From: Bacillota bacterium
GTDB lineage: Bacteria > Bacillota > Sulfobacillia > Sulfobacillales > Sulfobacillaceae
Direction of reading: 5' to 3'
DNA length: 32,280 nt
Assembly (NCBI GenBank): GCA_021841025.1
Contig: JAKBWA010000030.1
Span: 1-32,280, forward strand
Below the pieces are notes generated by a model. It did not search any database, was not told the DNA's origin, and worked only from the letters and a program-made list of their open reading frames with translations. Of the stretch, positions 7,417 through 26,600 are shown piece after piece; within the stretch, counting starts at the first letter, position 1, and each line of letters begins with the position of its first letter. The translations under genes and the position numbers were made by a program.

Positions 7417-7438
7417 CGTAACCGCCCCCTATGCACTA

Positions 7439-8865: not shown

Positions 8866-8887
8866 TCCCGAAAAATATTTTTCGGGA
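8866..8887. promoter_or_regulatory. 22-bp perfect palindrome upstream of the dabBA promoter
   Basis: The half-site TCCCGAAAAAT is followed immediately by its exact complement, with no mismatches. It ends 3 bp before the -35 box, centred near -50 relative to the expected transcription start, which suits an activator. No T-run follows on either strand, so it does not look like a terminator. A short relative (GAAATATTTC, 2033-2042) lies upstream of the LysR gene. Confidence 0.6.
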
Positions 8888-8890
8888 TCA

Positions 8891-8919
8891 TTGCAACTCC
8901 TGAGCGTCCAGTGTATAAT
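8891..8919 (+). promoter_or_regulatory. Sigma-A promoter of dabBA
   Basis: TTGCAA (8891-8896), 17-bp spacer, TATAAT (8914-8919): a strong housekeeping promoter giving a leader of about 120 bases before dabB. Confidence 0.75.
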
Positions 8920-9049
8920 CACATACGACATAAAATTCATGAATGATATGACATATGTACCATGAGTGTGACCTCCCTGCAGTGGCTCCTTCCCTGTGAA
9001 CCACATGGCAATCCTGGTAGCGACTGACTTATAGAAAGGTGGTAGTGCT

Positions 9050-10711
9050 ATGCCGGCATTAGTCAGCATCACGGCTCTCTTAATGCTTGTTTTACCGTGG
9101 CCCCTTCTTCTTACGGGGCTTGTCTTAGGCAGTGCAGCGAATCGCCATGTTGGGCTGATCAAGAAAGTTACCCGCATCTCAGCCGGGTTTGCCTTAAGCA
9201 CGGCTGTTCTCGCTACAGCAACAGATCTTTGGGGATGGAATGCGTCGAAAACCGTCTTGTCTTTTCCCCTGCCCTGGCATCTGGGGGCTTTTGCCTTCAA
9301 TGTGGATGTCAATACGCTAAGTATCATCATGATGTTGTTAGTGGCTTTGGTGGGATTCGTGGTGGTTCGCTACGCGTCCACGTATATGGAAGGAGATGCC
9401 CATGAAGGAGCCTTTCACCGTTGGCTTGCCCTAACGGTGGGCGCGTTCTTAGTCGTGATTACAGCGGGCAATGTATGGGAGTTTTTCCTCTTCTGGGTGG
9501 CAACCAGTTTGTTGTTGCATAACCTGCTGGCCTTCTATCGCGACCGCCCGCTGGCGTTGATTGCAGCCCGTAAGAAGTATATCCTCCACCGTATATCCGA
9601 TCTTTGCCTTTTCATTGCGCTAATATTGATTGTGCATACACTGAATACGTCCCAATTTAATCACATCATGCCTGCGGTATCTAAAATCTCAGGCCCTCTT
9701 CCACAAAGCTTAGAAATTGCCAGTGCTCTTTTGGTAGTAGCAGCCGTCCTTAAAAGCGCCCAAGTACCGTTTCATGGATGGCTCATTCAAGTGATGGAAG
9801 CGCCCACTCCTGTCTCCGCCTTATTGCATGCGGGTATCATTTATACGGGTACGTTCCTGCTGCTGCGAATGGTTGCTATTCTCTCGCGAGCTTTTTGGGC
9901 TCAAGACCTGCTCATAATCGTCGGCCTCTTTTCAATTGCCACAGCGTCTCTCATGATGATGACAGCCACCAATATTAAAGGATCGCTGGCCTATTCCACC
10001 ACGGCCCAAATGGGATTTATGTTAATGGAAATTGGTCTGGGCCTTTATCCTCTGGCCGTGCTTCACATTATTTCCCACTCCGTGTATAAAGCTCATGCAT
10101 TTTTGTCCTCCGGCAGTACCGTGGAATATTTCCGCTGGCCATCTTTGCCCCACGCCACTTCGGTTCTGTCTCTGGGCAAAATGGCAGCGAGCTGGGTCTT
10201 GGCCACAGTCATTGTGATGTTCACCGGCTGGATTCTTGACGTTCCTTTTTCCCACAACCTCCCCATCACCGTCATGGCAGTGATTTTAGGGGTAGCTCTC
10301 TCGCAATTAATTTACTCTGCCACAAGCCCGGAGCCAATGCACGTTCCCTGGGTTTTAGGGATCTCGGTAGCTATGAGTGGCCTTATTGCCACGTTATACT
10401 TCCTGTTAGGCTCCTGGTTTATGACGCTCTTTCACTTTCCCGAGATGGCCTTGGCCCGAGGAGCAGGGCAAGAGATCTTGTTAGGACTCACTGTAGCTAT
10501 ATTTTTCAGCCTGTTACTGATTCAGCAAATGCTGCCCAAACTCCTGACCCGTCCTCTCTTTCAAGCGCTCTTCGTGCATCTTTATAACGACTTGTATATC
10601 GATATGGTCTTCACCCGCTGGATTCAAAGATTTTCCCCAGGAAAGAAGGCAGCAGCATCACCTGCTCTCTTTGAAGAAGACCAACAACTCGAGGAGGTCC
10701 GGTCATTATGA
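9050..10711 (+). CDS. dabB: DabB: membrane subunit of the DAB inorganic-carbon accumulation complex
   Basis: 553 residues, ATG 9050 with AAAGGTGG upstream. The protein is highly hydrophobic, with many membrane helices, and belongs to the proton-translocating NADH dehydrogenase subunit 5/L (Proton_antipo_M) fold. The core motif LKSAQVPFHGWL places Lys235 and His242 in the ion path, followed by PTPVSALLHAGIIYTGT. In DAB systems this subunit couples a cation gradient to the cytoplasmic DabA, driving CO2 hydration and bicarbonate build-up. Its stop overlaps the dabA start by four bases (ATGA), so translation is coupled. The direct dabA partnership separates it from respiratory NuoL. Control is by the promoter and palindrome at 8866-8919. 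Confidence 0.93.
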   Translation: MPALVSITALLMLVLPWPLLLTGLVLGSAANRHVGLIKKVTRISAGFALSTAVLATATDLWGWNASKTVLSFPLPWHLGAFAFNVDVNTLSIIMMLLVALVGFVVVRYASTYMEGDAHEGAFHRWLALTVGAFLVVITAGNVWEFFLFWVATSLLLHNLLAFYRDRPLALIAARKKYILHRISDLCLFIALILIVHTLNTSQFNHIMPAVSKISGPLPQSLEIASALLVVAAVLKSAQVPFHGWLIQVMEAPTPVSALLHAGIIYTGTFLLLRMVAILSRAFWAQDLLIIVGLFSIATASLMMMTATNIKGSLAYSTTAQMGFMLMEIGLGLYPLAVLHIISHSVYKAHAFLSSGSTVEYFRWPSLPHATSVLSLGKMAASWVLATVIVMFTGWILDVPFSHNLPITVMAVILGVALSQLIYSATSPEPMHVPWVLGISVAMSGLIATLYFLLGSWFMTLFHFPEMALARGAGQEILLGLTVAIFFSLLLIQQMLPKLLTRPLFQALFVHLYNDLYIDMVFTRWIQRFSPGKKAAASPALFEEDQQLEEVRSL

Positions 10712-13179
10712 GTACAACCAATCTTTCCCACTTAGACATCACATCCACGGTACAATCGGCATGCAAACGCCTTGCACCCTTGTGGCCTCTAAAAAATTTC
10801 GTGGCGGTTAATCCCTACATGGGATTAAGTGATCTGCCGTTCTGGAAAGCTCATCAACTGCAAAAACGGGTAAGCGGGTCAGGGTTGTGCATGCCTCCTT
10901 CCTATTATTATGACCAAATTGCCAAGGGGAGAATCACCCGAGACGATTTGCAAGATGCGCTGAAGGAATTGGAAAGTCCCTGGGACATCAACAAATTCGA
11001 GCAAATTCTGTTCCAACGTCCCTCTCTTTCAGAAATCTCCGTAAAACTTCTAAGCGATATTCTTAATGAGAACTCCCAGGGAGACGATTGGTCCGGCTTC
11101 GTGACGGAACGGATCAGCCGATATTGTGCCGCCTATTTCGACCAGGGCCAGGCTCTGTGGCCCCTGCCTTGGAAAGACACTTCACTTTATCCAGGTTGGC
11201 TGGAATTTATGCGTTTTGATAAGACATCTAAGGTGATGGGCCTGAACAACCTCAACCAGGTCGTGCCCGCCTTCCCCAATAAGGCGCAGGATCTGATTGC
11301 CTTGGCACTTCAAGAACTGCCCATACCTCTCGAAGTGGTTGACGATTATCTCTATGCCGCGCTCTTGAGTGTGGGCGGCTGGGCCGGATGGACACAGTAC
11401 CTGGACTGGCAGGCACGGCAAAAGAAGAGCCATGATGATTCGACCCAGGATCTTTTGGCTATCCGGTTGGCTTGGGAACTCGTCCTCTATCGACTGTTGG
11501 GCAATGAAAAAATTGAAGAAGATTGGCACAACCGCTTAGCCCTTTTAGCCAAACCCTTAAGCACGGCCCATATCAAACACGACATCGACGCCGTGTTGCA
11601 AACGGCATTAGAAATCGGATATCAGAAAGAATTGATAGCTGAACTGACGCGCACCCAGACTGTCATTTCCAATGCCAGAGCAGATGTTCAAGCGGTATTT
11701 TGCATTGATGTGCGCTCCGAAGTGTATCGACGGGCTTTGGAAATGGTGGCGCCTTCAGTTCAAACCCGCGGATTTGCCGGTTTTTTTGGCATTCCCATGG
11801 AATATCTGCCACTGGGATCTCATGAGGCCAATAAGCATCTTCCAATTTTCTTTAATGCCTCCTACCGGATAAAAGAAGGATTGGCTCATGCCCCTAGCAC
11901 GGAAGTGAACAAAGCCATTCACAAAAGACACATTCGCTTGCGCACACTGAAGGCTTGGAAAATTTTTAAGACGTCAGCGGCATCGTGCTTCGCCTTTGTG
12001 GAGGCCACAGGTTTCTTATCAGCGCCGAAGCTCATTTTAGACAGCATGGGCTGGACTCGTCCTGTTCCTCATCCCAAACACGCAGGACTACCCAAAGGGG
12101 CCGTCCTGCATTTAGGCCCAGTGTTGACCGATCACGAATTACCCTCATCCTCAAAGACAGAACTCAGGGGCATTGCCGAAGACGAGCGTCCTGGCGCTGC
12201 CCAATTTGTTTTACAAAACATGGGGCTTACCCGGGATTTTCCCCGGCTCGTTGTATTTGTCGGCCACAAAAGCACGACGGTAAATAACCCGCAGGCCACG
12301 GCTTTAGATTGCGGAGCCTGTGGCGGTCAATCGGGAGAAGCCAGCGCTAGGCTCGCTGCAGCGTTGCTAAATGATCCCGCCACGCGCCGTGGACTGATGG
12401 ACAAAGGCATTGTCATTCCCGACGATACGCATTTTATGGCAGCTTTGCATGACACCGCTACGGACGAAGTGGAACTTTTTGAACATGACGTCCCGTCTTC
12501 CCACAAAGAAGACGTTCTCCTTTTTCGCCAGTGGACCCAATCGGCTGGACAGATTGCGCGCATGGAGCGGGCAGCATCTTTAGGCGTCGGCGATTTACCC
12601 GAACCCGCTGTTCATCAAACCATAAAGCACCGAATCCAGAACTGGGCCCAACTTCGCCCAGAATGGGCCTTAGCGGGCAATGCAGCCTTTGTTGCCGCCC
12701 CTAGAAGCCGCACGCAACATCGGAATTTGTCAGGCCGCGTTTTTCTTCATGATTACGACTGGCGCCACGATACGGATTTTTCCACGCTAGAGTTAATCAT
12801 GACGGCGCCTTTGATAGTGGCCCAGTGGATCAACATGCAGTACTATGGCTCGGTGGTGAACAACCGCCGTTTTGGAAGCGGAAACAAAGTGCTGCATAAC
12901 GTGGTAGGCGGATCGATTGGCGTTTTGGAAGGTAACGGCGGCGATCTGCGGGTGGGATTGGCGCTGCAATCCCTTTCCAATGGACGCGAATGGATGCATG
13001 AGCCCTTACGATTGACCGTGGTTATCGCAGCACCCCAAGAAGCCATTGATAGTGTCATTGCCAACCACCAACAGGTACGGGAATTGGTTGACAATGCCTG
13101 GATCCATTTGTTTCAGCTTGAGGATAAGGGTCATATCAGCCAAAGGCGTCAAGACACAACATGGCAGTTGGTCCGCTAA
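10708..13179 (+). CDS. dabA: DabA: zinc-containing subunit of the DAB complex (DUF2309)
   Basis: 823 residues, full length for the family. The beta-carbonic-anhydrase-like zinc site is intact: Cys332 and Asp334 in FCIDVRSE, His520 in VFVGHKS, and Cys535 in DCGACGG. The N-terminus FVAVNPYMGLSDLPFW is the conserved DUF2309 opening. DabA with DabB forms an energised carbonic-anhydrase-like machine that traps CO2 as bicarbonate for carbon fixation. The start overlaps the dabB stop (ATGA). No clear terminator follows. The 3' end (12783-13179) is repeated 11.5 kb downstream in the same orientation, and this copy is the intact one. Confidence 0.95.
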   Translation: MSTTNLSHLDITSTVQSACKRLAPLWPLKNFVAVNPYMGLSDLPFWKAHQLQKRVSGSGLCMPPSYYYDQIAKGRITRDDLQDALKELESPWDINKFEQILFQRPSLSEISVKLLSDILNENSQGDDWSGFVTERISRYCAAYFDQGQALWPLPWKDTSLYPGWLEFMRFDKTSKVMGLNNLNQVVPAFPNKAQDLIALALQELPIPLEVVDDYLYAALLSVGGWAGWTQYLDWQARQKKSHDDSTQDLLAIRLAWELVLYRLLGNEKIEEDWHNRLALLAKPLSTAHIKHDIDAVLQTALEIGYQKELIAELTRTQTVISNARADVQAVFCIDVRSEVYRRALEMVAPSVQTRGFAGFFGIPMEYLPLGSHEANKHLPIFFNASYRIKEGLAHAPSTEVNKAIHKRHIRLRTLKAWKIFKTSAASCFAFVEATGFLSAPKLILDSMGWTRPVPHPKHAGLPKGAVLHLGPVLTDHELPSSSKTELRGIAEDERPGAAQFVLQNMGLTRDFPRLVVFVGHKSTTVNNPQATALDCGACGGQSGEASARLAAALLNDPATRRGLMDKGIVIPDDTHFMAALHDTATDEVELFEHDVPSSHKEDVLLFRQWTQSAGQIARMERAASLGVGDLPEPAVHQTIKHRIQNWAQLRPEWALAGNAAFVAAPRSRTQHRNLSGRVFLHDYDWRHDTDFSTLELIMTAPLIVAQWINMQYYGSVVNNRRFGSGNKVLHNVVGGSIGVLEGNGGDLRVGLALQSLSNGREWMHEPLRLTVVIAAPQEAIDSVIANHQQVRELVDNAWIHLFQLEDKGHISQRRQDTTWQLVR
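12783..13179 (+). repeat. Direct repeat, left copy (3' end of dabA)
   Basis: Aligns without gaps to 24299-24695. I count eight mismatches in 397 bases, with the last roughly 200 bases identical. A further homologous block (12020-12240 with 24078-24296) lies upstream in both copies. The two copies bracket the catabolic operon. Confidence 0.9.
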
Positions 13180-13869
13180 ATAGTCAGATTTCGAGAAAAG
13201 CTAACAGGATCCGAAACATCACCAAGATCAGACATTGGAAGTCTTGAACGTCTGATTTGGAAAATCACTGGGAAGATATTCTTTTCGAAAGGTTCGCGTT
13301 GACTTTGACGACATTTGGCGATTTTACAGGAGTCAGCTGGTCCCGAGTCAGAGACGAATACCGGTGATCTAGAACAACTTTGGCGAATAAGGAAAGAGGC
13401 ACTGTCACGATGGCACTAACATCGAAGGCAATACCGCGGCGAATAGCGTTACGAACCCATTCATTGCCATGGTCATCAGATTGTAAGATTCTGCCACCAT
13501 TTCATGGAGATTTTGATTGGCATGAGAAAACGTCATCCTATCACTCATGCAGGACACTCATCAACGCATCAGAGAACGACTCGGGATCACAGCTCGATAA
13601 CGTATGTCAGGAGGCGGTGTGACGATTTTCCAAGTGCACTCCGCAAGACGGATCAAACTGGGAAGACGGCGACTTTGGCAAACGTTGGGTGGCTACGGTC
13701 ATAGTCAGGATTGCCCCGGGGTCGAATCGACTGTTGTTCAGTTGTCGTTGCTGTTTGGTGGCGAAGTCAAAGTAAGGGCATCTAACCACCAAACAATATG
13801 CTTTGATCCCTTTAGGGCGCGGTATTTAGCCGCAGGCCACTGAAACCCCGCCCCGCGCCCTTAGGCCGT
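13180..13869. other. Intergenic region between convergent dabA and amidohydrolase genes
   Basis: 690 bases with no supported gene; small plus-strand frames (13380-13843) lack ribosome-binding sites and family features. It holds three inverted repeats: ATCAGAC/GTCTGAT (13227-13233 with 13250-13256), TGTTTGGTGG/CCACCAAACA (13752-13761 with 13786-13795) and AGGGCGCGG/CCGCGCCCT (13814-13822 with 13853-13861). The last two could form terminator-like structures for the minus-strand operon, but neither has a T-run. GGTGATCTAGAACAA (about 13363-13377) has a close match after the dabA remnant near 24780. Confidence 0.5.
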
Positions 13870-15183
13870 TTACAAAATATTAGCCCGATCCGCTACCCGC
13901 CTTATGGCCTTCTCTGCTTGTCCAATGACCCGCTCCTCATCAAGTGTTAACAGCCGGTCGTCTTGATAGAGTACCCGGCCTGCAACCATGGTCATGGAGA
14001 CGTCGTCACTTCTAGCCTGGTATACGATTTGACTGTATGGATCGCTATACACCATCGGTTGATGGTGGACCCCCTTTTGGCTGACCATAATCAGGTCCGC
14101 CTCTTTTCCCACCTCAATGCTACCGATCCGGTCGTCTAGTCCAAGGATTTTGGCCCCACCAAAGGTCGCCTGAGTCAAGGTCGTTCGCGCGAGCATGGAC
14201 TTTGCGCCAAACAACGGTTTTTGCAGTAAAGCGGCTAAGCGCATTTCTTCAAATCCATCCAAGCGGTTGTTACATGGTGCCCCATCCGCGCTGATTCCAA
14301 AGCTGATCCCCTGTTCTTGCCAGGTGGATATCGGAGCTACCCCCGATGCCAGTTTCAGATTGGACGAAGGACAGTGAACCAACCCCACCTGATAGTCTCG
14401 GACGATCGTCAACTCGTCCTTCGTCAGCCACACACCGTGGGCGGCCATCAAACGACCCCGAGTTAGCCCCATCGCATGAAGATGATGCATGGGCAACAAG
14501 CCTTTATGCGCCAATATTTCTTGAACCTCGCGCTGACTTTCCGCCACATGGGTATGGACGATAAGGTGACGTCGTCCAGCTTCCTCTGCCACCAAACGCC
14601 ACAAATCATCGGTCACCGACAGGGCAAATCGGGGGGCCAATCCATACTGAATGCGGCCTCTGTCAAATCCGTGCCAAGCTGCTGCTAAATCTAAACTTTC
14701 TTTTAGAGCCGACTCCGTTGGCTCGTATAGAAGCGGATGAGGCTCATCCATTAAGCATTTACCTGCGATGGCACGTATTCCACTCTGGGCCAACGCGTGA
14801 AAAGCGCCCTCCGTATGGGACACTGTCTCCATGTCCAAAATGGTGGTCGTGCCCGACCGCAGAAGCTCAGCGATGCCCAGTTGGGCCGAAACGTGTACCG
14901 AATCGAAATCATGGGCCGCTTCAAGCGGCCAGATCCTCGTCTTGAGCCAGTCAAGCAAGTCCAAATCGTCGCCCATGCCCCGAAATAGGGTTTGGCAAAG
15001 GTGAACATGGGGTTGAACTAATCCTGGCAACACATATTGATTCTGGGCCTGAATGACGACATCGGCCGTCTTTTCCCACGGCCCGATATGGACAATATAG
15101 GACTCGTCAATCCACACATCGGCTTGAACCACGCGGTAGGCCGGATCCATAGTAATAACCGTTCCCCCGGTAATTTGAATCAT
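13870..15183 (-). CDS. Amidohydrolase, AtzA/TrzN/guanine-deaminase-type aminohydrolase
   Basis: 437 residues. I choose ATG 15183 because AAGGTGG lies 7 bases upstream; two earlier in-frame ATGs fit worse. It is a metal-dependent amidohydrolase of the deaminase branch: PHVHL (His59, His61), HTHVAES (His212, Glu215), AAHGVWL (His249) and SADGAPCNN (Asp300). This set occurs in chlorohydrolases, S-adenosylhomocysteine deaminases, 8-oxoguanine deaminase and related enzymes that deaminate or dechlorinate N-heterocycles. Being last in an operon with a hydroxylase and a ring-opening hydrolase, it likely deaminates the substrate or an intermediate, for example an aminopyrimidine. The exact substrate is inference. 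Confidence 0.85.
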   Translation of the reverse strand: MIQITGGTVITMDPAYRVVQADVWIDESYIVHIGPWEKTADVVIQAQNQYVLPGLVQPHVHLCQTLFRGMGDDLDLLDWLKTRIWPLEAAHDFDSVHVSAQLGIAELLRSGTTTILDMETVSHTEGAFHALAQSGIRAIAGKCLMDEPHPLLYEPTESALKESLDLAAAWHGFDRGRIQYGLAPRFALSVTDDLWRLVAEEAGRRHLIVHTHVAESQREVQEILAHKGLLPMHHLHAMGLTRGRLMAAHGVWLTKDELTIVRDYQVGLVHCPSSNLKLASGVAPISTWQEQGISFGISADGAPCNNRLDGFEEMRLAALLQKPLFGAKSMLARTTLTQATFGGAKILGLDDRIGSIEVGKEADLIMVSQKGVHHQPMVYSDPYSQIVYQARSDDVSMTMVAGRVLYQDDRLLTLDEERVIGQAEKAIRRVADRANIL

Positions 15184-15261
15184 GACCATCCCACCTTTGG
15201 TTCCCATTGCCCTCAGCTATCCTGTACAGGGTAGCTTCATGATCCTAAAACTTGCATTAGC

Positions 15262-16464
15262 CTAAAAGATCGCTTTGTCAGATGGCCTGAAGTGTCCTTC
15301 ATCCCAATCGGCAATCCAGTCTAGCAAACTTTCATCGAGCCCCCGATTAGCTAAAATGGACACCCCCATCGGCAGCCCTTGCCACTGGGACAGTGGCAGA
15401 CTCACCTGAACCGCCCCACTGAGTCCAGCCAAAGCCGTCATGCGCAGTACCCGGTCTCGAAAAGCATTTAAGAACGGCACTGGCGTATTGCAAAGAGGGG
15501 CAATGCCTGGAGCAGTTGGCATAATCACTACCGTATCATCGCGCAAAATATCGTCGAAAAATTGTAACCAACTGTCCACCCGACCACGCCAATAATCACG
15601 ATCGGAGGACGAGATGGTTCCGGTCCACAAAAACCGTTCTTGAACCCCTGGCCCAAAGCGGGGCTGAACATCCGTAATCCATGTTCCAAAATTTTGCCAA
15701 ATCTCGTAACCCTGCAAAATACGAAAGGCTTGCATCCACTGATCGAGTCCGTCGGGCGCTATTTCCATCTGCCGGGTCAGGGGAAAGGCCGATGCTAAAG
15801 AATGAATCGCCCCGACCAAGGGCTCTTTGACCGCGTCATCGACCAAGTCCAACATATCGGTCGCAATTATGGCACAGCGCAAGCGGCCTGGTTTGGAAGA
15901 ACCTTGAAGCAGGACACCCCCGATGGTTTTGAGAAGAGATGGAGAGCGTGTAAACCAACCGACCGTATCAAAACTTTGGGCCAGCGGGATGACTCCGGTA
16001 AGGTTGGTGCGACCATGACTCGGGCGAATGCCATAAATCCCGCAATAGCTGGAAGGAATGCGGATCGATCCGCCCGTATCGGTGCCAATGGCGAAATCAA
16101 CCAGTCCTCCGGCCACGGACACCGCAGATCCGCTGGAGGATCCGCCTGGAATGCGGTCCGGCGCCACCGGATTAATGGGTGTGCCATAATGCACATTTTG
16201 GCCATTGAGGCCATACATCAACTCATCGGTATGGGTTTTTCCGGTCAACGTCGCGCCCGCCCTTCGCAGTGCTTCGATAACGTGAGCCGTTTCACTCGCT
16301 GGCGTGTGGGTTGCCAACCAATCCGGATTACCCCCGCTAGTCACTTGCCCTCGCACTGCAAAGGCCTCTTTGGCCGCGAATTTTAGGCCGGCAAGCGGGC
16401 CACCGGATACTGCCGGAAGCACCAAGGCTGGATCATAAAATGCTTGAAGTGTGTCGTCGACCAT
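15262..16464 (-). CDS. Amidase signature family enzyme (AtzE/ureidomalonase-like role)
   Basis: 400 residues, ATG 16464, three bases after the stop of the preceding FAH-fold gene; the ribosome-binding site lies inside that gene's last codons. The Ser-cisSer-Lys triad is visible: Lys32 (FAAKEAF), the glycine-serine loop PGGSSSGSA (Ser109-113), and nucleophile Ser133 in GTDTGGSIRIP. The family hydrolyses amides. In barbiturate breakdown an amidase-type ureidomalonase gives malonate and urea, and in cyanurate breakdown AtzE- and AtzF-type amidases act on carboxybiuret and allophanate. Position next to a ring-opening amidohydrolase supports such a role but does not decide between them. At 400 residues it lacks a C-terminal extension. 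Confidence 0.85.
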   Translation of the reverse strand: MVDDTLQAFYDPALVLPAVSGGPLAGLKFAAKEAFAVRGQVTSGGNPDWLATHTPASETAHVIEALRRAGATLTGKTHTDELMYGLNGQNVHYGTPINPVAPDRIPGGSSSGSAVSVAGGLVDFAIGTDTGGSIRIPSSYCGIYGIRPSHGRTNLTGVIPLAQSFDTVGWFTRSPSLLKTIGGVLLQGSSKPGRLRCAIIATDMLDLVDDAVKEPLVGAIHSLASAFPLTRQMEIAPDGLDQWMQAFRILQGYEIWQNFGTWITDVQPRFGPGVQERFLWTGTISSSDRDYWRGRVDSWLQFFDDILRDDTVVIMPTAPGIAPLCNTPVPFLNAFRDRVLRMTALAGLSGAVQVSLPLSQWQGLPMGVSILANRGLDESLLDWIADWDEGHFRPSDKAIF

Positions 16465-16467
16465 GTT

Positions 16468-17337
16468 TCAACCCCCCTCATTCCTATTCCCCGCTTGCAC
16501 CACGTTGTGTAATTGTCCCAACCCGGTGCCTTGTATCACACAGTCATCCCCAATTTGCAAAAATCTTGGAGGATTGCGGGTAAAACCCACCCCCCCGGGG
16601 GTCCCCGTCAAAATCATGTCACCGGTTTCAAGCGGCACCACTGCCGACAAATCTTCAATCAGGACCGGTATGTCAAAAAGCAAGTCCTGGGTGTGACCCG
16701 TTTGCACCATCTCGCCATTGATCCGCGTGGTGAGACAAATACCGCCGCTCGGCCACTCGTCTGGTGTCAGCAACCAGGGTCCGCAGGCCCCCGTGCCGAT
16801 GAAGTTCTTGCCCAAAGTCCATTGTGGTCCCCGGAATTGATAATCTCGCACCGATGCGTCATTAAATAAGGTGATTCCCGATATCATTCCGGGGGCATCG
16901 TCACGACAGGTGCCATAGGTTGGCTGGCCTATGACCACGGCCACCTCGCCTTCCCAATCCAACTGGGGGGACTGTTCAGGCATCAAGAGGGGCTCCTCAT
17001 GCGCCACCAGGGTGTGCACGCCTCGTTCAAACCATACCGGATGCGAAGGTCGATCCAGCGGAGTCGTCTTGACGTGGAGCAAATAATTGAGACCGACTCC
17101 GAAAATGCGCCGAGGTCTTACCGGCGTCGCCCATTTGAGACTCTTGGCCGATCGCAGAGCATGGCGGGGTGCCTTTTGGAGGGCATCTTGGGCCGCATTC
17201 CACAGCGGGCTAAAGTAAAGGGCGCTCGCTCCGCCCGAGATATTAATCCCAACACGAGTCAAATCCACCAGGGTGTCCTCGCTTAGAAAGGCTGCTAAAT
17301 GCCGACCATGGTCCTCCCAAAACTCTACCAGGCGCAT
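16468..17337 (-). CDS. Fumarylacetoacetate hydrolase (FAH) family protein, operon paralogue 1
   Basis: 289 residues from ATG 17337 (MRLVEFWEDHG), with GGAGG 7 bases upstream. A longer frame starting at 17424 would run deep into the upstream gene and lacks a site. The start overlaps the ring-opening amidohydrolase end by 13 bases. Family motifs: GVGLNYLLHV, the metal-binding LDWEGEVAVVIG (ExE), FNDASVRDYQ (Asp) and LTGTPGGVGFTR near the end. FAH-fold enzymes cleave or decarboxylate beta-keto acids or hydrolyse C-C bonds in a Mg/Mn-dependent way. Its step in this operon is unknown; acting on a malonate-like or ureido acid product is a guess. Confidence 0.85.
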   Translation of the reverse strand: MRLVEFWEDHGRHLAAFLSEDTLVDLTRVGINISGGASALYFSPLWNAAQDALQKAPRHALRSAKSLKWATPVRPRRIFGVGLNYLLHVKTTPLDRPSHPVWFERGVHTLVAHEEPLLMPEQSPQLDWEGEVAVVIGQPTYGTCRDDAPGMISGITLFNDASVRDYQFRGPQWTLGKNFIGTGACGPWLLTPDEWPSGGICLTTRINGEMVQTGHTQDLLFDIPVLIEDLSAVVPLETGDMILTGTPGGVGFTRNPPRFLQIGDDCVIQGTGLGQLHNVVQAGNRNEGG

Positions 17338-18407
17338 GATCGGTCCTCCACAACCCGCGCAATGGCGGCCACCGGGCCTCCGCCTAAGGGTCCATGGTGC
17401 TCGGCTCGGGTTGACACATAACAAGCGGGAAGGCCCGTTGCGGCCGCAAGCACCGAACCGACTACACAGCGAGCGTATCGCATGTCTTGCACGTCATCGT
17501 CGGTCAACATGGTATGACGATGTCCCCGCACGAAGCCCAAAGGATTGGCTTCCGCCTTGGCAAATACCGCCATCAAGCGTTCAGCCCTATGTGACATCAA
17601 AGGCACTTGCGAGCCTAAACCCAGGCTTTGCAAAAGACGTCGTACGGTTTCAAGATCGATGGGATCGGCCATCACCTCGTGTTGCATAATAAGGTCTCCC
17701 TGCCAATAGGGAGAATTGCCGAAGAGCGTAATCTCTGAGCGCCTCAAGCCGGGTTTGGCCGATGTGTTGGCGACCCCCGAGTAGAGGGAGAAATCATGGC
17801 CAATGGCTTGATCGTTCACGGCCTCCTCCGCCACCTCTCCTATGGCCACCGCTACCCCTAGGGCCGAGGCTGCACGAGAATACACCATGTTATTGCGCAT
17901 CGCGTCCGCTTCTGGCAAAATGGCCCCTTTGATTTGCACCATGTGCACGTCAGACGGCAAAATCTTTGCTTCTTGCATCAATGTTTTTACCACCCGAGCG
18001 GTTTCCTCCACCATGGCTCTTCGTCCAACTTCTTCGGCATCAAACGGACGGGTATAGCCCACGGTCACCGCCAACCGGGGCGGTCCCACTGGGGCCCGAG
18101 ATATCTGTCCCGTACGCCATATGACGACATAGTGGGGCGTTACCACCCCTTCCGTTCCTCCCGAAAACGAGAAAACGATACGGTCTTCCACTTCGTGGGA
18201 CGAGAGGCCCAAAGGGCCACAAAGAACATCTGAAAATGCCCGTACAGCCAGTTCGCGCGAAAAGTCATTGCGTCCGCCATTGCCTTCGGTTTTTCCGATA
18301 ATGGCACAGATATCGTGGGCACGAAAGGTTCCCTTTGCCAGACCAGACACCACCCCCTCCACGTCCGATGGTCCCTTGGCGTCAAAACGTTGGATATACG
18401 TTTGCAC
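17325..18407 (-). CDS. Ring-opening amidohydrolase (barbiturase / cyanuric acid hydrolase family)
   Basis: 360 residues, the usual family length. The start is GTG 18407, directly after the preceding gene's stop, with AAGGTG 9 bases upstream. The threefold-repeat family shows its markers: IIGKTEGNGGRNDF, FSFSGGTEGVVTPHYV, MVQIKGAI and, near the end, STRAEHHGPLGGGPVAA. These Ser-Lys hydrolases open cyanuric acid or barbituric acid rings. The xanthine-dehydrogenase-type genes upstream favour barbiturase, since a Mo-hydroxylase can turn uracil into barbiturate, but cyanurate cannot be excluded. It is translationally coupled on both sides. Confidence 0.9.
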   Translation of the reverse strand: MQTYIQRFDAKGPSDVEGVVSGLAKGTFRAHDICAIIGKTEGNGGRNDFSRELAVRAFSDVLCGPLGLSSHEVEDRIVFSFSGGTEGVVTPHYVVIWRTGQISRAPVGPPRLAVTVGYTRPFDAEEVGRRAMVEETARVVKTLMQEAKILPSDVHMVQIKGAILPEADAMRNNMVYSRAASALGVAVAIGEVAEEAVNDQAIGHDFSLYSGVANTSAKPGLRRSEITLFGNSPYWQGDLIMQHEVMADPIDLETVRRLLQSLGLGSQVPLMSHRAERLMAVFAKAEANPLGFVRGHRHTMLTDDDVQDMRYARCVVGSVLAAATGLPACYVSTRAEHHGPLGGGPVAAIARVVEDRSCAW

Positions 18408-18971
18408 CTACATCAACACCTTCAGTTTTTTTCCGGTGCACTTGAGAATGTCGACCTTGAATACATCGCCGTGAGCCATTTCGCTGGCACTGGATTGACT
18501 GGCCAAGGCCGCCACCACTTCTTCAGAATTTATGGTAAAAATGGTCACAGGGTTGGTCACCGCCATCGGAAAATCGTGCCACACCCGCTGAAAGAGCATG
18601 ACCCCATGACCTGGCTCAAAGCGAAAGGCTTCGACCTCTGATAGGTCGGGCACGGTGGAGTTAGGCTCCGGCTTGCCTAACACCATCACGTACGGCTGGT
18701 TCCCCATCCCAATAAATACTTGGGTCAGGATACTATGATACTCTAGCCAATCTACTTCCGACGACCGCTGCGATATGCGGGCGGTACGAATGACCGGCCG
18801 GCCATGACAGACAAAGTCGAGATTGTCCCCTTCTTCTACGCTGCCTTGATAAAAGGGAATGGTTAACCCGGGCCGATAGACTTGATTGCCTAACATCACC
18901 CCGTAAGGCATAAGACGCTCCACCGTTGCCTCCACAACCGGCACTTCAATGTAAGAAAGCTGCGTCGTCAC
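18408..18971 (-). CDS. Ureidoglycolate lyase (AllA)-like protein
   Basis: 187 residues, GTG 18971 with TAGGAGG 7 bases upstream. The middle part fits the ureidoglycolate lyase family: WLEYHSILTQVFIGMG corresponds to the family's LERH..SQ-F-P pattern, PYVMVLGKP follows, and FEPGHGVMLFQRVWHDFP corresponds to GqGV..x-G-WH. AllA releases urea from ureidoglycolate. Here the next gene opens a ureido-ring, so a lyase or hydrolase acting on an analogous ureido acid is plausible. The N-terminal 45 residues are less typical. The stop is immediately followed by the GTG of the ring-opening enzyme. Family call by motif reading; substrate unknown. Confidence 0.65.
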   Translation of the reverse strand: MTTQLSYIEVPVVEATVERLMPYGVMLGNQVYRPGLTIPFYQGSVEEGDNLDFVCHGRPVIRTARISQRSSEVDWLEYHSILTQVFIGMGNQPYVMVLGKPEPNSTVPDLSEVEAFRFEPGHGVMLFQRVWHDFPMAVTNPVTIFTINSEEVVAALASQSSASEMAHGDVFKVDILKCTGKKLKVLM

Positions 18972-19026
18972 CGTTTATCCTCCTACCTCAAATTTCTCTC
19001 GTCTTTCCTTATCTTGCCTTTTCTTC

Positions 19027-21201
19027 CTAATCTTGTTGTTTGATAAGTTCGCAAGTGGCCCACGACTTTTGGGACTGGGCCATCTGCTGCCACACCTTTT
19101 GGGCCGTGATAGGCAGGTCCCGGACGCGTACCCCGACGGCATCATAAATGGCGTTGGCAATCGCCGGGGCCACCGGCGCCACCGCCACCTCCCCAGCCGA
19201 TTTGGCCCCCATCGGTCCATCAGGATCGGGCGTATCGGTGAGGATAACCGTAATGGGGGGCATTTCCATGGCCGACAGATAGGCGTAATCTCGAAGACTT
19301 TGTGTGAGAACATGGCCCTCATCACTGACATGGACTTCCTCACACAACGCATAGCCTAACCCCTGGGCCAAAGCGCCCTCGATTTGTCCCTGAACCGCTA
19401 TCGGATTGATGGGATGCCCCACATCCACCCCGGCCACCAGCCGTTGGACCGTGACTTGGCCGATGTCTGAGTCCACATGGACGTGAGCGACCAAAACGGC
19501 AACGGGTGCGGGTGACTGCTCCGGTGCGGCGACCCCTAGACCTACAACTGGTCGTCGATGCGGTCCATAGAAACTGGCCTCTGCCAATTCCTCTATCGTA
19601 TACCCGCCCCATGGGCCCTGTGATTTCGAACGCCATGGTAAGATGTCAACCAAATCCTGCAATTGCCGCTTGACCTGTTGAGCCGCCTTCTGGGCAGCCG
19701 ATCCGGTCACGAACGTGGTTGACGACGCGTAGGTTCCATAATCAAATGCCTCGAGATCGGTATCCCCGGGCACGATGCGAATGCCACGCGGCGATATGCC
19801 CACGGCGTCGGCCACGATTGAGCGCAGTACTTCTCGTGCGCCCTGGCCCATGTCAACCGCCCCCGTCGTCACCCATAGCATCCCATCTTCTTGTAGCACT
19901 ACACGGACCATGGCCAGTTCCGCTTGCGGCACCCCGCTAGCCTGCATGCTAAGAGCCAATCCTAGACCTTCATTTAGACCGCGAGGTGCGGACCATTCGG
20001 CCGCATCCAGACATTTTTGAATTAAATCCTGAATGGGGTCCCCACGAAACACCCGTCTACGGTCGTTGATCGGATCGAGCACATCGAGGGGGTCCCCTTC
20101 CTGCATTAAAGAGCCTATGCGCAGGGCTGCCGGATCCATCCCCATGCGACGCGCCACTTCATCCCAGTGGGTTTCTACGGCCATCGCTCCTTGCGGGCCT
20201 CCGTAACCCCGAAATGCTCCCGCTACCGGCCCCACCGCGTAGCGTACCTGGCCGTCAAATTCATAACGAGGGCATCGATAAAACGGCAATGTCTTCAGCG
20301 CCATGTTATGGGCCACGCTCGACCCATGACCACCGTAGGGACCCGTAATCACATCGACTTCGAGATGCATCGCGGAGAGGTTCTGCCCATTCCATAGGCT
20401 TGCGACCCGAAGGGTCGCTGAATGACGAGTGCGGCCCAATAAAAACTCTTGTCGGCGAGATAATTGCATCTTCACCACTCGGCCCGTCAACCGAGCCAAC
20501 AAGGCAACCCAAGGTTCGACGATGACCTCTTGCTTACTACCAAAACCGCCGCCCACGTCGGTCGCAACCACCCGAATTTGGGAGGCTGGGCACTCAAGCG
20601 CCCGGGCCACAATGCGGCGAACATGGTATGGTACCTGGGTGGTCGTCCAAAGCACCAAACGGCCACCCGGTTCGATCATGGCCATGCTGGCATGGGGCTC
20701 TAGTTGCAGGTGGCTCTGCCGCTGAACCGTCACCATGGTGCCGTCTCCTGCTATGGGCCCCATGGATTCTCCGATATGAGTCGACCACCGGGCCAACACA
20801 TTATCGGGGCACGACGCGTGCAGAGGGCCGTCAAGCCCATGGTATTCCACTATCGCCCGATCCAAACAACGCCTTAAGTCATCCTGCGTTTGGGCCGCAA
20901 TCAAGGCCACCGGCTCTCCCATATACCGAACCACCCGATTGATAATCGCCATATCATAGGGAGATGGCTCTTTATGAGGCTGACCAGCAGTGGTAAATCG
21001 AGTAGCCGGAACCTCGGTGGCCGTGACCACCGCGTGGATTCCGGGCAACCCGCGCAGTTCCTCCAGGTTTGTCACATGAGGCACGGCGGGTACCCGGTGT
21101 GCCTCGAGCACACCGGCTACCAATCCCGGGGTACGATCGATCCAATCTACCGCATAGCGGGCTTGAGCACTTAAACTCCAACGCCGTTCCACACGTTCCA
21201 T
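19027..21201 (-). CDS. Xanthine dehydrogenase-type molybdopterin-binding large subunit
   Basis: 724 residues. ATG 21201 follows the FAD-subunit stop by two bases, and GGAGGAGG lies in that subunit's last codons. Moco-binding motifs are clear: ATDVGGGFGSK, AGAFRGYGGPQG, GAVDMGQGAREV, and GAKSAGEVAVAPVAPAI, whose Glu is the catalytic base. Enzymes of this family hydroxylate N-heterocycles with water as oxygen source, in a complex with 2Fe-2S and FAD subunits, both encoded directly upstream. With the ring-opening amidohydrolase downstream, oxidation of uracil/thymine or a similar ring to a barbiturate-like product is the best guess. No dedicated XdhC or cofactor-maturation gene is seen in the window. 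Confidence 0.93.
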   Translation of the reverse strand: MERVERRWSLSAQARYAVDWIDRTPGLVAGVLEAHRVPAVPHVTNLEELRGLPGIHAVVTATEVPATRFTTAGQPHKEPSPYDMAIINRVVRYMGEPVALIAAQTQDDLRRCLDRAIVEYHGLDGPLHASCPDNVLARWSTHIGESMGPIAGDGTMVTVQRQSHLQLEPHASMAMIEPGGRLVLWTTTQVPYHVRRIVARALECPASQIRVVATDVGGGFGSKQEVIVEPWVALLARLTGRVVKMQLSRRQEFLLGRTRHSATLRVASLWNGQNLSAMHLEVDVITGPYGGHGSSVAHNMALKTLPFYRCPRYEFDGQVRYAVGPVAGAFRGYGGPQGAMAVETHWDEVARRMGMDPAALRIGSLMQEGDPLDVLDPINDRRRVFRGDPIQDLIQKCLDAAEWSAPRGLNEGLGLALSMQASGVPQAELAMVRVVLQEDGMLWVTTGAVDMGQGAREVLRSIVADAVGISPRGIRIVPGDTDLEAFDYGTYASSTTFVTGSAAQKAAQQVKRQLQDLVDILPWRSKSQGPWGGYTIEELAEASFYGPHRRPVVGLGVAAPEQSPAPVAVLVAHVHVDSDIGQVTVQRLVAGVDVGHPINPIAVQGQIEGALAQGLGYALCEEVHVSDEGHVLTQSLRDYAYLSAMEMPPITVILTDTPDPDGPMGAKSAGEVAVAPVAPAIANAIYDAVGVRVRDLPITAQKVWQQMAQSQKSWATCELIKQQD

Positions 21202-21203
21202 TT

Positions 21204-22028
21204 TTATGCCTCCTCCAACGAGGATTCAAAAAACCCAGATTGCGTCTTGAGCAAACGTTCCAGGACAACGCCAGCTACGTGTGCGCGATATGCCGCCGAC
21301 GCTCGAAAATCGTCGATAGGCACCCACCCCATTTGCTGAAAGGCTTGCCACTGCGCCCTGATTTTCGTGGCCAAATCCAGAGGTTTGGAGCAGACAGACA
21401 GATGGCAGGGGATCTCAAACACGCCAGATATCACCATTTGGACGTGTATTTGACCATTCGCTACAGACTGTTGCCAAGAGACTGCCCCGTTGACAATACT
21501 GCCGTTAAGACGCGCTTTGGTGATTTTTTCAAAGACCATTCGTCGGCGCTTTGTCGAGCGCGGAATTCGAAGCGCCAACCACACCCGGTTCGCACCGTAT
21601 AACGGTCCTTCATACTCCAGTAACATCCAGCGAGGTTGCGGATCTTCACGAGACATCACCAAAACCTCGGTTCCAAGAAGACGCATCATGGGATACAAAT
21701 CGGACGTCGGCTCCCGATTGGCCAGTCTCCCTGCGACCGTGGCTAAGTTGCGCAAAACAGGCGTACCCAATCTGTTCAAACCATCCGCCAGTCCCGGGAC
21801 GTGGTTTTTGGCCCATGCCTGCAAGTGGGTTAAGGTCACCACCGGTCCCAATTGCCAGCGGGAGGGATACTCAACAATTTGGTTCGCATCGGGAAATCTG
21901 CGGATGTCAACGACTTTCTCAACCGGATTCTCGTCACCCAATAACCCCGTACCGCCACCAATTACACGATACCCTTGAACAAGAGCCGATTGCAGCTCAT
22001 CGAGCGTAGATGCCTCAATCCACTGCAA
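21204..22028 (-). CDS. Xanthine dehydrogenase-type FAD-binding medium subunit
   Basis: 274 residues. The start is taken as TTG 22028 (AGGGATGAAGG just upstream), overlapping the small subunit by 14 bases; no ATG or GTG is available nearby. FAD motifs of the CO-dehydrogenase-flavoprotein fold are present: IGGGTGLLGDE, then TPVLRNLATVAGRLANREP, and the C-terminal SAAYRAHVAGVVLERLL. It passes electrons from the Mo and Fe-S subunits to an acceptor. Position between the other two subunits and tight overlaps indicate a fixed-stoichiometry operon. Confidence 0.88.
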   Translation of the reverse strand: MQWIEASTLDELQSALVQGYRVIGGGTGLLGDENPVEKVVDIRRFPDANQIVEYPSRWQLGPVVTLTHLQAWAKNHVPGLADGLNRLGTPVLRNLATVAGRLANREPTSDLYPMMRLLGTEVLVMSREDPQPRWMLLEYEGPLYGANRVWLALRIPRSTKRRRMVFEKITKARLNGSIVNGAVSWQQSVANGQIHVQMVISGVFEIPCHLSVCSKPLDLATKIRAQWQAFQQMGWVPIDDFRASAAYRAHVAGVVLERLLKTQSGFFESSLEEA

Positions 22029-22506
22029 CCTTCATCCCTGCTTTCCTTTGCAACACTTTCATGGCAGCGCGCACCGATGCATAATGTCCTGTACACCGGC
22101 AGAGGTGGCTGACAAGCGATTCCCGCACGACGTTTTCATCGACTGGGTCCTGAGATAACACGTGGTGTAACGACAACAGTATGCCGGGCGTACAATATCC
22201 ACACTGCGCAGCCCCTTCTTCGACAAAAGCGTCTTGTAGATCTCGCATAAGGGGATCGGTCTCCAGCCCTTCGTAGGTCGTAATAGCCGCGCCGTCTAGA
22301 CGTACAGTTAGCATGAGACAACTGGGCACCAGACCTACCCCCTCTTGGCTCACCACACAGGCACCGCAATGCCCGGTACCGCATCCGTAACGCGCACCAT
22401 AAAGATCCATCTTTGTCCTGAGGGTGTCTAGCAATCGTTCATCGGCAGGTACAGTGACGGTTTTTAACTTCCCATTGACGGCCAATTGAACACGGTGTGT
22501 GTGCAT
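22015..22506 (-). CDS. Xanthine dehydrogenase-type 2Fe-2S small subunit
   Basis: 163 residues, ATG 22506 with AAAGGAGGTGG upstream. Two [2Fe-2S] clusters: the plant-ferredoxin type with Cys42, Cys47 and Cys50 (CGTGHCGAC) and Cys63, and the helical domain with Cys102/Cys105 (QCGYCTPG) and Cys136/Cys138 (LCRCTGHY). All eight ligands are present. It is the first intact gene of the operon. Upstream lies a broken permease gene whose promoter (23745-23773) is probably the operon's original start. No better promoter was found in the 157 bases directly upstream. Confidence 0.93.
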   Translation of the reverse strand: MHTHRVQLAVNGKLKTVTVPADERLLDTLRTKMDLYGARYGCGTGHCGACVVSQEGVGLVPSCLMLTVRLDGAAITTYEGLETDPLMRDLQDAFVEEGAAQCGYCTPGILLSLHHVLSQDPVDENVVRESLVSHLCRCTGHYASVRAAMKVLQRKAGMKVAVD

Positions 22507-22663
22507 TAGTCGCCACCTCCTTTACCTGAGTGCCAAATCTCTTGCCCATGATATCCTTTAAAAAGTAAAAAGATGGCAGACAGGGTTTCCCATCAGTCCT
22601 CATTCTGTATCTTCGATGATCAGTTGCCGGCAGATCTCAAATTCCATTCCCGCTAGGGCAAAC

Positions 22664-23665
22664 TCATGTCGCCGTATGTCTTTTGTAGTACCATGCATGC
22701 CAAAGCCCTGCCACTAGGTTTCCGGTGTAAGAACTTAGGCCCATGCCGCCCAAAAGACTTGACAAAAAGGACTTATCCACAGTGCGGCATCGACCGTCCA
22801 CAAACCAATAAAGGCGGGATCCGACGAAGATGGCCATTGCAGACCAATTCCAGCCGTCTTGAAACCAATACGTAGTCTCTGGCGAAAACAGAACCAAACT
22901 CTTCGAATCATATTTTCCGCCAGACATCCAATGATTGACGGTAAACATCGCCCTCCATTAGCCTATGACCAATACCGACAAGCTTAAAAAGTTAATGAAG
23001 AACGTAAGGAAATCAGGGAGTAAATGAAGAGAGCATCCAAGGCGACTAGAATCGATACGGCAGCCTCTAAAATGGTCGATCGGCAACGTTGAATGTGAAA
23101 TACAATGGACAAGAAAACTCCTAGCAAAACTAGACGTATTGAGGTGATTGGCGACAATTTGGCCAAGAATCGTGACCGTCAAACATAGCAGCACATCCCT
23201 AGTGAGGCAACGCCGCCATGATGGCTCCCGCAGGATTTTGAGCGTACATCTTGGGTCGATCATGGTGCCTAATAATACACCGAGTGCCAATACCGCAATG
23301 GCGGCAATGCCTGCGCCATGCCCTGTCTATTGGACATTTGTTTGCCGTCCGTGTTATCGGCATGTAGCGGGTATAGTCTGACGCACAGTAGGTCCCGATC
23401 TCACTTTGGGTCCCTGCAGGCTGGCCCATCCTAAGATGACAAAATACCGCATACTATGCCTATACACCCAGAGATTGCCACAAGCTTAGCCCCATCTGCA
23501 TAAAAATGGGAATCCACTAAAGGTCAATTGACCTGCCAACCATACCCAAAAAACCTCTTTAGTTTAGGTTTGCCATGCCGAGCTTTCCCATCAATGAGAT
23601 CAATACCATGTTTTTCTACATGGAATTCCACATCTCCGGTGCGGCCCCCTATTTACTCCAGTCAT
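22664..23665 (-). pseudogene. NCS1 (purine/cytosine-type) permease, frameshifted and internally deleted
   Basis: The start survives: ATG 23665 with AGGAGGGGG just upstream and a good promoter behind it. In shifting frames one can read the N-terminal signature VEKHGIDLIDGKARHGKP (about 23570-23640), the permease motif ASDYTRYMP (about 23360-23390), and GIAAIAVLALGVLLGT (about 23270-23320). Then come DGWNWSAMAIFVGSRLYW (about 22800-22860) and SSYTGNLVAGLWHAWYY before TGA 22664. These follow the NCS1/purine-cytosine permease order, but the middle (roughly the helices between the N-terminal signature and SDYTRY) is missing and several frameshifts and stops occur. The intact gene would have imported the substrate of the operon below it. 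The transporter may now be elsewhere in the genome. Confidence 0.75.
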
Positions 23666-23744
23666 TTCCCCCTCCTTGCATTTGTATACCTTCAGTTTCT
23701 TGTTCCTGACACTAATGATGCCTAAATGTAAGTTTCCAAATAAA

Positions 23745-23773
23745 TTCTACAAAATATATGTAAGGTTTTCAAT
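23745..23773 (-). promoter_or_regulatory. Promoter in front of the broken permease and catabolic operon
   Basis: On the minus strand: TTGAAA (23773-23768), 17 bp, TAGAAT (23750-23745), in an AT-rich stretch about 80 bases before the permease start codon. Probably still transcribes through the pseudogene into the hydroxylase genes. Confidence 0.6.
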
Positions 23774-24077
23774 ACGAAATAAATTTATTAGACACATATA
23801 CAAACGTAACCTATCGGGATAGAAAATACACACGAATGTAATCTGCCAAGACATACACCGAAGGGATTTACGGAGTAATCGCAGAGTTCGACCATGCGTA
23901 CGCCAATTTTAAGTTTTGGTGCCCGTGATCTTCCGAATCAGTCCCATCTCACGTGACCAGAGCTTCCCGGCTATCCCCCAGAACACAGCGAATCCCATCA
24001 CCTGGGGTCATCTCCATGTCGAGACCGTGATTGCCCACAAGGCGAACTACCCGCTTTGTCGCGAACTTCACCTTCTT
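23774..24077. other. Intergenic region between the permease promoter and the dabA remnant
   Basis: About 300 bases, AT-rich up to 23900, then G+C like the neighbours. No supported gene. On the minus strand, around 23920-24000, a hydrophobic stretch VMGFAVFWGIAGKLW followed by basic residues and a stop could be the tail of another lost membrane protein, but it is too short to assign. Confidence 0.35.
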
Positions 24078-24695
24078 CAGCGCCGAAGCTCATTTTAGAC
24101 AGCATGAGCTGGACTCGTCCTGTTCCTCATCCCAAACACGCAGGACTACCCAAAGAGACCGTTCTGGATTTAGCCCAGTATTGACCGATCACGAATTATC
24201 CTCACCCTCAAAGACAGAATCAGGGGCATTGCCGAAGACGAGTGCCCTGGCGCTGCCCAATTTGTTTTACAAAACATGGGGCTTACCCGGGATTTTCTCA
24301 CGCTAGAGTTTATTACAACGGCGCCTTTGATAGTGGCCCAGTGGATCAACATGCAGTCCTATGGCTCGGCGGTGAACAACCGCCGTTTTGGAAGCGGAAA
24401 CAAAGTGCTGCATAACGTGGTAGGCGGATCGATTGGCGTTTTGGAAGGTAACGGCAGCGATCTGCGGGTGGGATTGGCGCTGCAATCCTTTTCCAATGGA
24501 CGCGAATGGATGCATGAGCCCTTACGATTGACCGTGGTTATCGCAGCACCCCAAGAAGCCATTGATAGTGTCATTGCCAACCACCAACAGGTACGGGAAT
24601 TGGTTGACAATGCCTGGATCCATTTGTTTCAGCTTGAGGATAAGGGTCATATCAGCCAAAGGCGTCAAGACACAACATGGCAGTTGGTCCGCTAA
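24078..24695 (+). pseudogene. Truncated, internally deleted second copy of dabA 3' region
   Basis: Two blocks match dabA: 24078-24296 with 12020-12240 (ten mismatches, two single-base deletions near 24172 and 24220) and 24299-24695 with 12783-13179 (eight mismatches, no gaps). Between them 540 bp of the parent is missing; the break falls in GATTTTC, which occurs at both parental ends (12235 and 12775), as expected for deletion between short repeats. The missing part includes zinc ligands His520 and Cys535, and there is no 5' two-thirds, so the copy cannot encode a DAB subunit. It ends at the same TAA as dabA. Weak matches to the parental downstream region continue past the stop. Confidence 0.92.
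24299..24695 (+). repeat. Direct repeat, right copy (3' end of dabA)
   Basis: Partner of 12783-13179, same orientation, 11,516 bp apart. Together they flank the whole catabolic operon and its promoter. Confidence 0.9.
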
Positions 24696-25073
24696 ATAGT
24701 CATGATGACAGGTGTCCCCTTTCGAACAAGCCACGAGATCCGGAAAGTTACCAAGGCAAGCCCTGGAATGCGTTAACGGGTGATCTAGGACAATCTGAAC
24801 AGACGTGGCGTACCGGGGGTATTCATGATGCTGTCGTGCTCGTTGTTCTTCTTCCTAGAACCATCGTGGACACACCCTTTCTCCCAGGATGTCCTACGCC
24901 CTCGGCTCCTCTTATCCTCATAGAATTACGGCTTCATCCCTCAATCTCTACACCGTCAACGTGCGTGCTTTTACAAAAACCATGTGCCAAACCCGCTTTC
25001 AGGAGTTTGTGCCCGTATCCGCTTCTGACAGCAGACACAATTAGCGCAACCCTTCTTAACGGTGGTCATGATC
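24696..25073. other. Intergenic region after the dabA remnant
   Basis: No supported gene. The first 100 bases carry short matches to the DNA after dabA: ATCCGGAAAG-TTACCAAG against ATCCGAAACA-TCACCAAG, and GGTGATCTAGGACAA against GGTGATCTAGAACAA. The duplication therefore extended past the gene end before decay. A plus-strand frame to 25144 lacks a start site and any family pattern. Confidence 0.45.
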
Positions 25074-25140: not shown

Positions 25141-26502
25141 CTAGATTGATTCTAATGCCCGACCTTCCGTCTTTGGCCCCCAAATTCCGCCCACTACAAC
25201 CAGGTAAATAAACATCAAGCCGAGCATCCATGCCACGGGTGTAAATCCTAAGGCTTTCGTCATGGTTGGGAGAAATAAGCTCCACAAACCCAGCCCCACT
25301 CGCATAATGGACCACAGGAAACCTTGTGCTGTATTACGAATTTCGGTTGGAAACAATTCAACCGACCAGATCCGAAGCAGTGGCCACAGACCAATCCCCT
25401 GGCCAATGCCAAACAGCAGTACGTTCAGTATAGCCACCGTGGGATTGGAAATAGGGAAAAAGACCAACAACAAGAAAGCTGCAGAACATAGCAGGGCACT
25501 AATGGCAAAAAGCAGGCGACGATTAATCCGATCATTAAACGGTATAAACACTACAAGCAGTCCTACGATGGCTGACGCGAACCACAAAATTTCCAAAGAA
25601 TCCGAGGATGCCGTGGAATGTGCACCCAAGGTGTGGAAAATATATGGCAAAAAGAAGCCATATGTTCCTGCGGGAATCCCCCAAAGCAGATAGAGGGGAA
25701 TAATGAACAGGAGCCGTTTTCCAAATCGCCGACTAAAAAGCTCGCCAAAACCACCTTTGGCCAATGTGGGATTAGAGGGCTGGGATTCAGGCCTTGGCGC
25801 AGAACTAGTATTTTGAGTCAGCTGAGCAACAGCCTCATCGACTTTCTCGGGATGTCCTTGGTTATACAACCAACGCGGTGATTCTAATAATGAACGCCGC
25901 AGAAACCATGCAACCACTGCCACGATAAACAAGCTGCCAAACACTAGACGTACGCCGGCAATCCCTAATGGAGCAAACAATAAAGACAATAATAAAATGA
26001 CAATCGGACCAATGTACCAGAAGACATTGGTCAAGGCCATCAACTTGCCGCGAGACCTACGAGGTGCAAATTCGGCAATTAAAGACCATGACGTCGGAAC
26101 ATCCGCTCCGACAGCCAAACCCATCACCATATATCCGACGATAAGCATTGATGCGTTGACGGCGGCAATGACCACTAACACCCCAAGGGCATAAATTAGA
26201 AGGTCTACGCTGTAGATAAACTTTCTCCCAAACCGATCACCCAGTCTTCCAGCAATCAAGGCGCCCACAGCCGTGGAAATCCCATTCGCGCTAAAAGCTG
26301 CAATCAAACCTATTAATGACGGGCTTAAATGATATAAGGCCACCCACATGGCTAAGGAAGCACCTCCCGCAACTATGGACCCTGCGTCCAGGTAATCACC
26401 CAGCGCCGCGATTAAGGTCCATCGCCAATGAATACTCTTAAGTTGAGCATCATCAAGTGCGACAAACTCACTCCCACTGCTAGAATTTGCTGATTGTTTC
26501 AT
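25141..26502 (-). CDS. MFS transporter, sugar-porter type (probable L-rhamnose uptake)
   Basis: 453 residues from ATG 26502 (AAAGGGGA upstream); a start at 26535 lacks a site. Twelve hydrophobic segments; the loop 2-3 motif is GRLGDRFGRKFIY, and the sugar-porter mark after helix 6 reads LLESPRWLYNQG. The N-terminal stretch HWRWTLIAALGDYLDAGSIV is typical of proton-coupled MFS sugar/organic acid carriers. It has its own promoter overlapped by an 18-bp palindrome and its own terminator, next to the rhamnose catabolic genes. Import of L-rhamnose or a related deoxy-sugar or aldonate is inferred from context. Confidence 0.82.
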   Translation of the reverse strand: MKQSANSSSGSEFVALDDAQLKSIHWRWTLIAALGDYLDAGSIVAGGASLAMWVALYHLSPSLIGLIAAFSANGISTAVGALIAGRLGDRFGRKFIYSVDLLIYALGVLVVIAAVNASMLIVGYMVMGLAVGADVPTSWSLIAEFAPRRSRGKLMALTNVFWYIGPIVILLLSLLFAPLGIAGVRLVFGSLFIVAVVAWFLRRSLLESPRWLYNQGHPEKVDEAVAQLTQNTSSAPRPESQPSNPTLAKGGFGELFSRRFGKRLLFIIPLYLLWGIPAGTYGFFLPYIFHTLGAHSTASSDSLEILWFASAIVGLLVVFIPFNDRINRRLLFAISALLCSAAFLLLVFFPISNPTVAILNVLLFGIGQGIGLWPLLRIWSVELFPTEIRNTAQGFLWSIMRVGLGLWSLFLPTMTKALGFTPVAWMLGLMFIYLVVVGGIWGPKTEGRALESI

Positions 26503-26600
26503 AATGTTTCCCCTTTCTGTTATTTGCTGCGACAAGATCGCCGCTAGCTGTTAAAATGTGCGATTCCGCCATATTCTTCGCACCGTGATCTCTCTCAATG

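Follow-up and report, generated by a model that had tools for sequence, protein, structure and literature searches.

A decayed partial copy of dabA at the scarred edge of a probably acquired nucleobase-catabolism operon in a Sulfobacillaceae contig

Why should the end of a carbon-uptake gene recur, in the same orientation, beyond a catabolic operon? In the window considered here (the whole stretch of DNA that was analysed, 32,280 bases, which is the complete contig C117 of a 118-contig draft), the 397 bases at 12783-13179 that end at the dabA stop are found again at 24299-24695 on the same strand. A sequence-only reading of this DNA had counted eight mismatches by eye, and alignment of both copies confirms exactly eight substitutions, at 12795, 12798, 12800, 12801, 12842, 12854, 12940 and 12973. 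By blastn the copies match over 413 bp at 97.6%, which is far more than chance would give, and the identity continues for 7 bases beyond the stop, to 13186 and 24702. In that reading, the one full and one truncated copy were what single-crossover integration of a DNA circle carrying a dabA fragment would leave, and everything between them was an operon that homologous recombination could excise.

The full-length copy (copy 1) is part of a dab locus. Its dabB gene (9050-10711, + strand) is intact, with matches to Proton_antipo_M and Proton_antipo_N, and the dabB-dabA pair is conserved in relatives. The dabA gene itself (10708-13179, +) matches PF10070 with 873.7 bits and carries the zinc-site motifs FCIDVR (11698), VGHK (12259) and DCGACGG (12307). 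The zinc-site residues given in the DAB2 structure paper are His524, Cys539 and Cys351/Asp353/Arg355 (PMC13144422), and by motif match these correspond to VGHK, DCGACGG and FCIDVR, respectively. In the dabA tree the gene groups within its genus, together with the related genome G003 (support 0.997). To the left, the gene order over 2314-10711 is lysR, a small membrane protein, DUF6671, orf5527, a phosphoglycerate-mutase-like gene and dabB, followed by dabA; part or all of this order is common to the dab loci of G003 and G001.

The second copy is longer than the 397-base repeat. It spans 24077-24702 (+) and corresponds to dabA 12019-12241 joined to 12782-13186. The left block, 24077-24297, is 94.6% identical to dabA 12019-12241 and has two 1-base deletions relative to it, which are two frameshifts. 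Between the two blocks a 540-bp stretch of dabA has been deleted, and the junction sits at the microhomology GGATTTT. Both VGHK and DCGACGG lie inside the deleted stretch, leaving copy 2 without the zinc-site His and Cys, while FCIDVR is upstream of the region that copy 2 covers, the 5' half of dabA being absent. An open frame of 139 amino acids for the dabA C-terminus survives (24276-24695). With dabA homology present and both the reading frame and the catalytic residues lost, copy 2 is, judged from its alignment, a pseudogene, an ordinary gene remnant rather than a clean truncated end, and it is not likely to function as a DAB subunit. Left of 24077 no further dabA or dabB sequence was found; here the copy adjoins the interior of an IS4-family fragment. 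Of the layout originally described, the direct orientation and the completeness of one copy stand, but the truncated copy has an internal deletion and frameshifts, and on the left it abuts an insertion sequence remnant.

The substitutions also tell the two copies apart. At the 19 positions where they differ, the outgroup dabA sequences mostly share the base of copy 1 in 13 cases and that of copy 2 in 3, and they are undecided in another 3. At seven sites all eight outgroup sequences match copy 1 (one locus enters this set twice, as C21 and as G001:C57), and all seven of the changes in copy 2 alter the protein. The differences between the outgroups and copy 2 thus have the pattern that relaxed constraint would be expected to leave. 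Since the outgroups mostly side with copy 1 and the protein-changing sites are in copy 2, it is copy 2 that is drifting, with copy 1 slightly changed as well. Every difference between the copies is located 5' of 12974, and from there on they form a perfect direct repeat of 213 bp, at 12974-13186 and 24490-24702 (both +). A difference-free run of this length has a p of about 0.006 under an even spread. A sign of donor origin for the tail of copy 1 was looked for and not found: followed along the gene, the identity of dabA to its relatives does not break at 12974.

Past the stop, the similarity drops abruptly. The 3' flank of copy 1 (13189-13266, +) and that of copy 2 (24720-24795, +) are related at 68% over 79 columns, with a z of about 8 relative to shuffled versions of the near flank, compared to 95-100% for the coding copies. 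Because the coding parts and the flanks disagree in this way, and one of the copies is dead, a single event without later gene conversion does not explain both. Probably the flanks diverged first, and recombination later made the coding ends alike. Relatives were compared to decide which of the two flanks is ancestral; their dabA 3' flanks have no similarity to the flanks in the window and do not align with them. In G003, which has the closest dabA, the contig ends about 0.9 kb beyond the gene, and the gene downstream of its dabA was not found in the present genome.

A much greater divergence in the flanks than in the coding copies would also be expected if copy 2 were left over from a second dab locus, a tandem or paralogous duplicate that was there before the operon inserted between the two, with gene conversion keeping the coding parts alike. 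Genomes with two dab loci do occur, S. benefaciens AMDSBA1 being one where both are found in a single genome. We nevertheless regard this as quite unlikely: no dabB and no more of dabA was found beyond the left edge of copy 2, and copy 2 looks less decayed than the transporter pseudogene at the near end of the operon (see below).

The identical tail of 213 bases could alternatively be an assembly collapse. The draft is a mixed assembly, since two of its contigs are near-identical to S. benefaciens AMDSBA1 while another is not: C21 (L020, L062) matches AMDSBA1 contigs (L016, L061) over about 19 kb at 99.4-99.7%, and C92 (L175) matches one (L176) over 13.6 kb at 99.97%, whereas most matches of C116 (L021) to AMDSBA1 are only 64-80% identical. 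C21 and C92 may be mis-binned contigs or may reflect very recent transfer. The dab locus on C21 was considered as a true paralogue of this organism and dropped, C21 being 99.7% identical to an AMDSBA1 contig. As the window is a whole contig of a draft that contains foreign contigs, misassembly at the 213-bp repeat is possible, either by joining two sequences through the identical stretch or by filling the tail of copy 2 with reads from copy 1, and the abrupt stop of the exact run at 13186/24702 is consistent with this. The 5' part of copy 2, however, has substitutions, indels and a deletion of its own, in a pattern of decay that looks biological, so the source does contain a second dabA sequence. 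An artefact is highly unlikely to account for the arrangement.

The interval between the copies contains eight intact catabolic genes (13870-22506, − strand), assigned by profile and family, whose order is the same in the genomes G008 and G011. They encode an amidohydrolase, an amidase, an FAA hydrolase, a ring-opening amidohydrolase of the barbiturase/AtzD family, a ureidoglycolate-lyase-like protein and three molybdenum hydroxylase subunits. The first gene of the operon, an NCS1 transporter, is a pseudogene (22622-23649, −) that carries about 20 indels and has lost some 400 bp in a deletion; the gene is intact in G008 (L052 14922-16391) and G011. By family membership only, a molybdenum hydroxylase, a barbiturase-family enzyme and an amidase occur together, and this composition would fit oxidative pyrimidine breakdown or a similar N-heterocycle pathway. 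With the known oxidative pyrimidine operon (uracil to barbiturate to ureidomalonate) it shares these three enzymes and the remnant of an NCS1 gene. It differs in that the ring-opening enzyme scores best with cyanuric acid hydrolases, that it also includes an FAA hydrolase and a ureidoglycolate-lyase-like protein, and that NCS1 is dead. The concatenated operon proteins group with G008, which belongs to another genus (support 1.0), and the GC content of the operon genes is 53-59%, compared to 50-51% for the genes on the dab side and 49% for contig C116. As the operon proteins group outside the genus, dabA groups inside it, and the GC content of the operon is higher, the operon was likely acquired horizontally. 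By indel count the NCS1 pseudogene is more decayed than copy 2 of dabA, and the operon is therefore not clearly younger than the dabA remnant.

Not everything between the copies is operon, as had been proposed. The claim holds for the intact genes; NCS1 is a pseudogene, and both borders (13267-13725 and 23883-24077) are remnants of repeats. Between copy 1 of dabA and the operon is a mosaic of three pieces that match elsewhere: 13267-13365 and 13374-13428 are found in G003, and 13429-13725 is found on another contig of this genome (G000:C107) and partly in G003. The last piece is a remnant of two adjacent small genes (L173 382-1470 and L172 1637-2203) that have no match in Pfam, NCBIfam or PHROGs. 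On the other side, the 195 bp at 23883-24077 (−) are a piece from inside an IS4-family insertion sequence, with copies in G003 that are 77-79% identical. Nine places in G003 match this piece, seven of them over nearly its whole length, which makes it part of a multicopy element, and the intact-looking copies there carry a DDE transposase. In G003 the element is about 1.5 kb long (L161 1738-3280, L163 1997-3442), its inverted ends contain TTATCCCCAGTTT, and it has what look like target duplications of 8-9 bp.

We lean, with a little more than even confidence, towards the view that copy 2 is a dead dabA relic from a local rearrangement at the scarred edge of the acquired nucleobase operon. In such a course of events, a duplicate bearing dabA, either local or brought by the operon donor, would have ended up between the operon and the rhamnose cluster. 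Insertion of an IS element and a deletion would then have taken away its 5' part, with decay afterwards, and gene conversion with the functional dabA would have evened out the coding segment, its last 213 bases most recently of all. The flanks would have retained an older divergence, which leaves them 68% alike. The structure of copy 2, the pattern of relaxed constraint, the IS4-family edge, the NCS1 pseudogene and the identical tail followed by a sharp drop all argue for this. Weighing against it are the short flank match of only 79 columns, the possible assembly collapse of the tail, and the lack of an intermediate in relatives, which were searched for an empty or filled site and gave no dabA beside a rhamnose cluster, no informative site and no intermediate. 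A decaying partial duplication at an IS-scarred operon edge would likewise show truncation, internal deletion, frameshifts, catalytic loss, an IS fragment and a second pseudogene; what sets the present case apart is that copy 2 ends in 213 bases that still match the functional gene perfectly, next to a flank at 68%. The case shows an acquired operon stitched into a chromosome among IS debris and gene remnants.

Single-crossover integration, as first suggested, is possible and compatible with the gross layout, but it is not required by the data and not specifically supported by them. In this account the operon would have arrived on a non-replicating circle, together with a 3' piece of the dabA of a related strain, and decay, IS insertion and gene conversion would have come later. 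The window resembles such a Campbell-type integrant in that a full copy and a 5'-truncated one stand in direct orientation on either side of an operon that looks foreign, and the 3' flanks are related yet diverged, as the flanks of donor and recipient would be. A truncated copy that is contiguous and co-extensive is not found, although later decay could have produced the 540-bp deletion and the two frameshifts. On its left, copy 2 joins the inside of an IS fragment, and the coding identity of 95-100% disagrees with the 68% of the flanks. The operon and the fragment would have had to arrive jointly, whereas decay has gone further in NCS1 than in copy 2; the two could be reconciled if the transporter gene was dead on arrival or if copy 2 has been refreshed. 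No gene typical of a circle or vector was found in the interval: a search for an integrase, relaxase or replication gene between the copies gave none, the intact genes there being metabolic, and no tRNA or Rfam element was found in or beside it, so the interval does not qualify as an integrative element (ICE, prophage or tRNA-associated island). Taking these points together, we consider the circle unlikely.

A perfect direct repeat of 213 bp is long enough for homologous recombination, and excision of the operon across the repeat in the window would be possible in principle. It is most improbable, though conceivable, that the operon is still mobile, with the dabA ends exchanging sequence and the 11.5-kb interval occasionally leaving as a circle and re-entering. 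If this were true, excision would leave an intact dabA beside the rhamnose locus, and the carbon-uptake gene would be a home-made attachment site for a catabolic operon. Excision, if shown, would make this an instance, in an acidophile, of a catabolic operon that is gained and lost by recombination at an ordinary gene.

It is worth noting that a convergent gene set of nucleobase type also follows dabA in the S. benefaciens-type dab locus (L020 8051-19000, L062, L016). This set consists of an amidohydrolase, a polysaccharide-deacetylase family protein, a PucR regulator, a molybdenum hydroxylase and NCS1, and it is not orthologous to the operon in the window (28-34% identity). There are only two cases of dabA followed by a nucleobase set, in effect one sequence besides the window, and the genes next to other dab loci are different. 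Beyond copy 2, an MFS gene and a non-phosphorylative L-rhamnose cluster (25141-32158, −) were identified from profile matches, including an L-rhamnonate dehydratase above the curated cut-off and a rhamnose-dehydrogenase-like SDR. The MFS gene adjoins the rhamnonate dehydratase also in G025 and in G029-G031, which are of another family.
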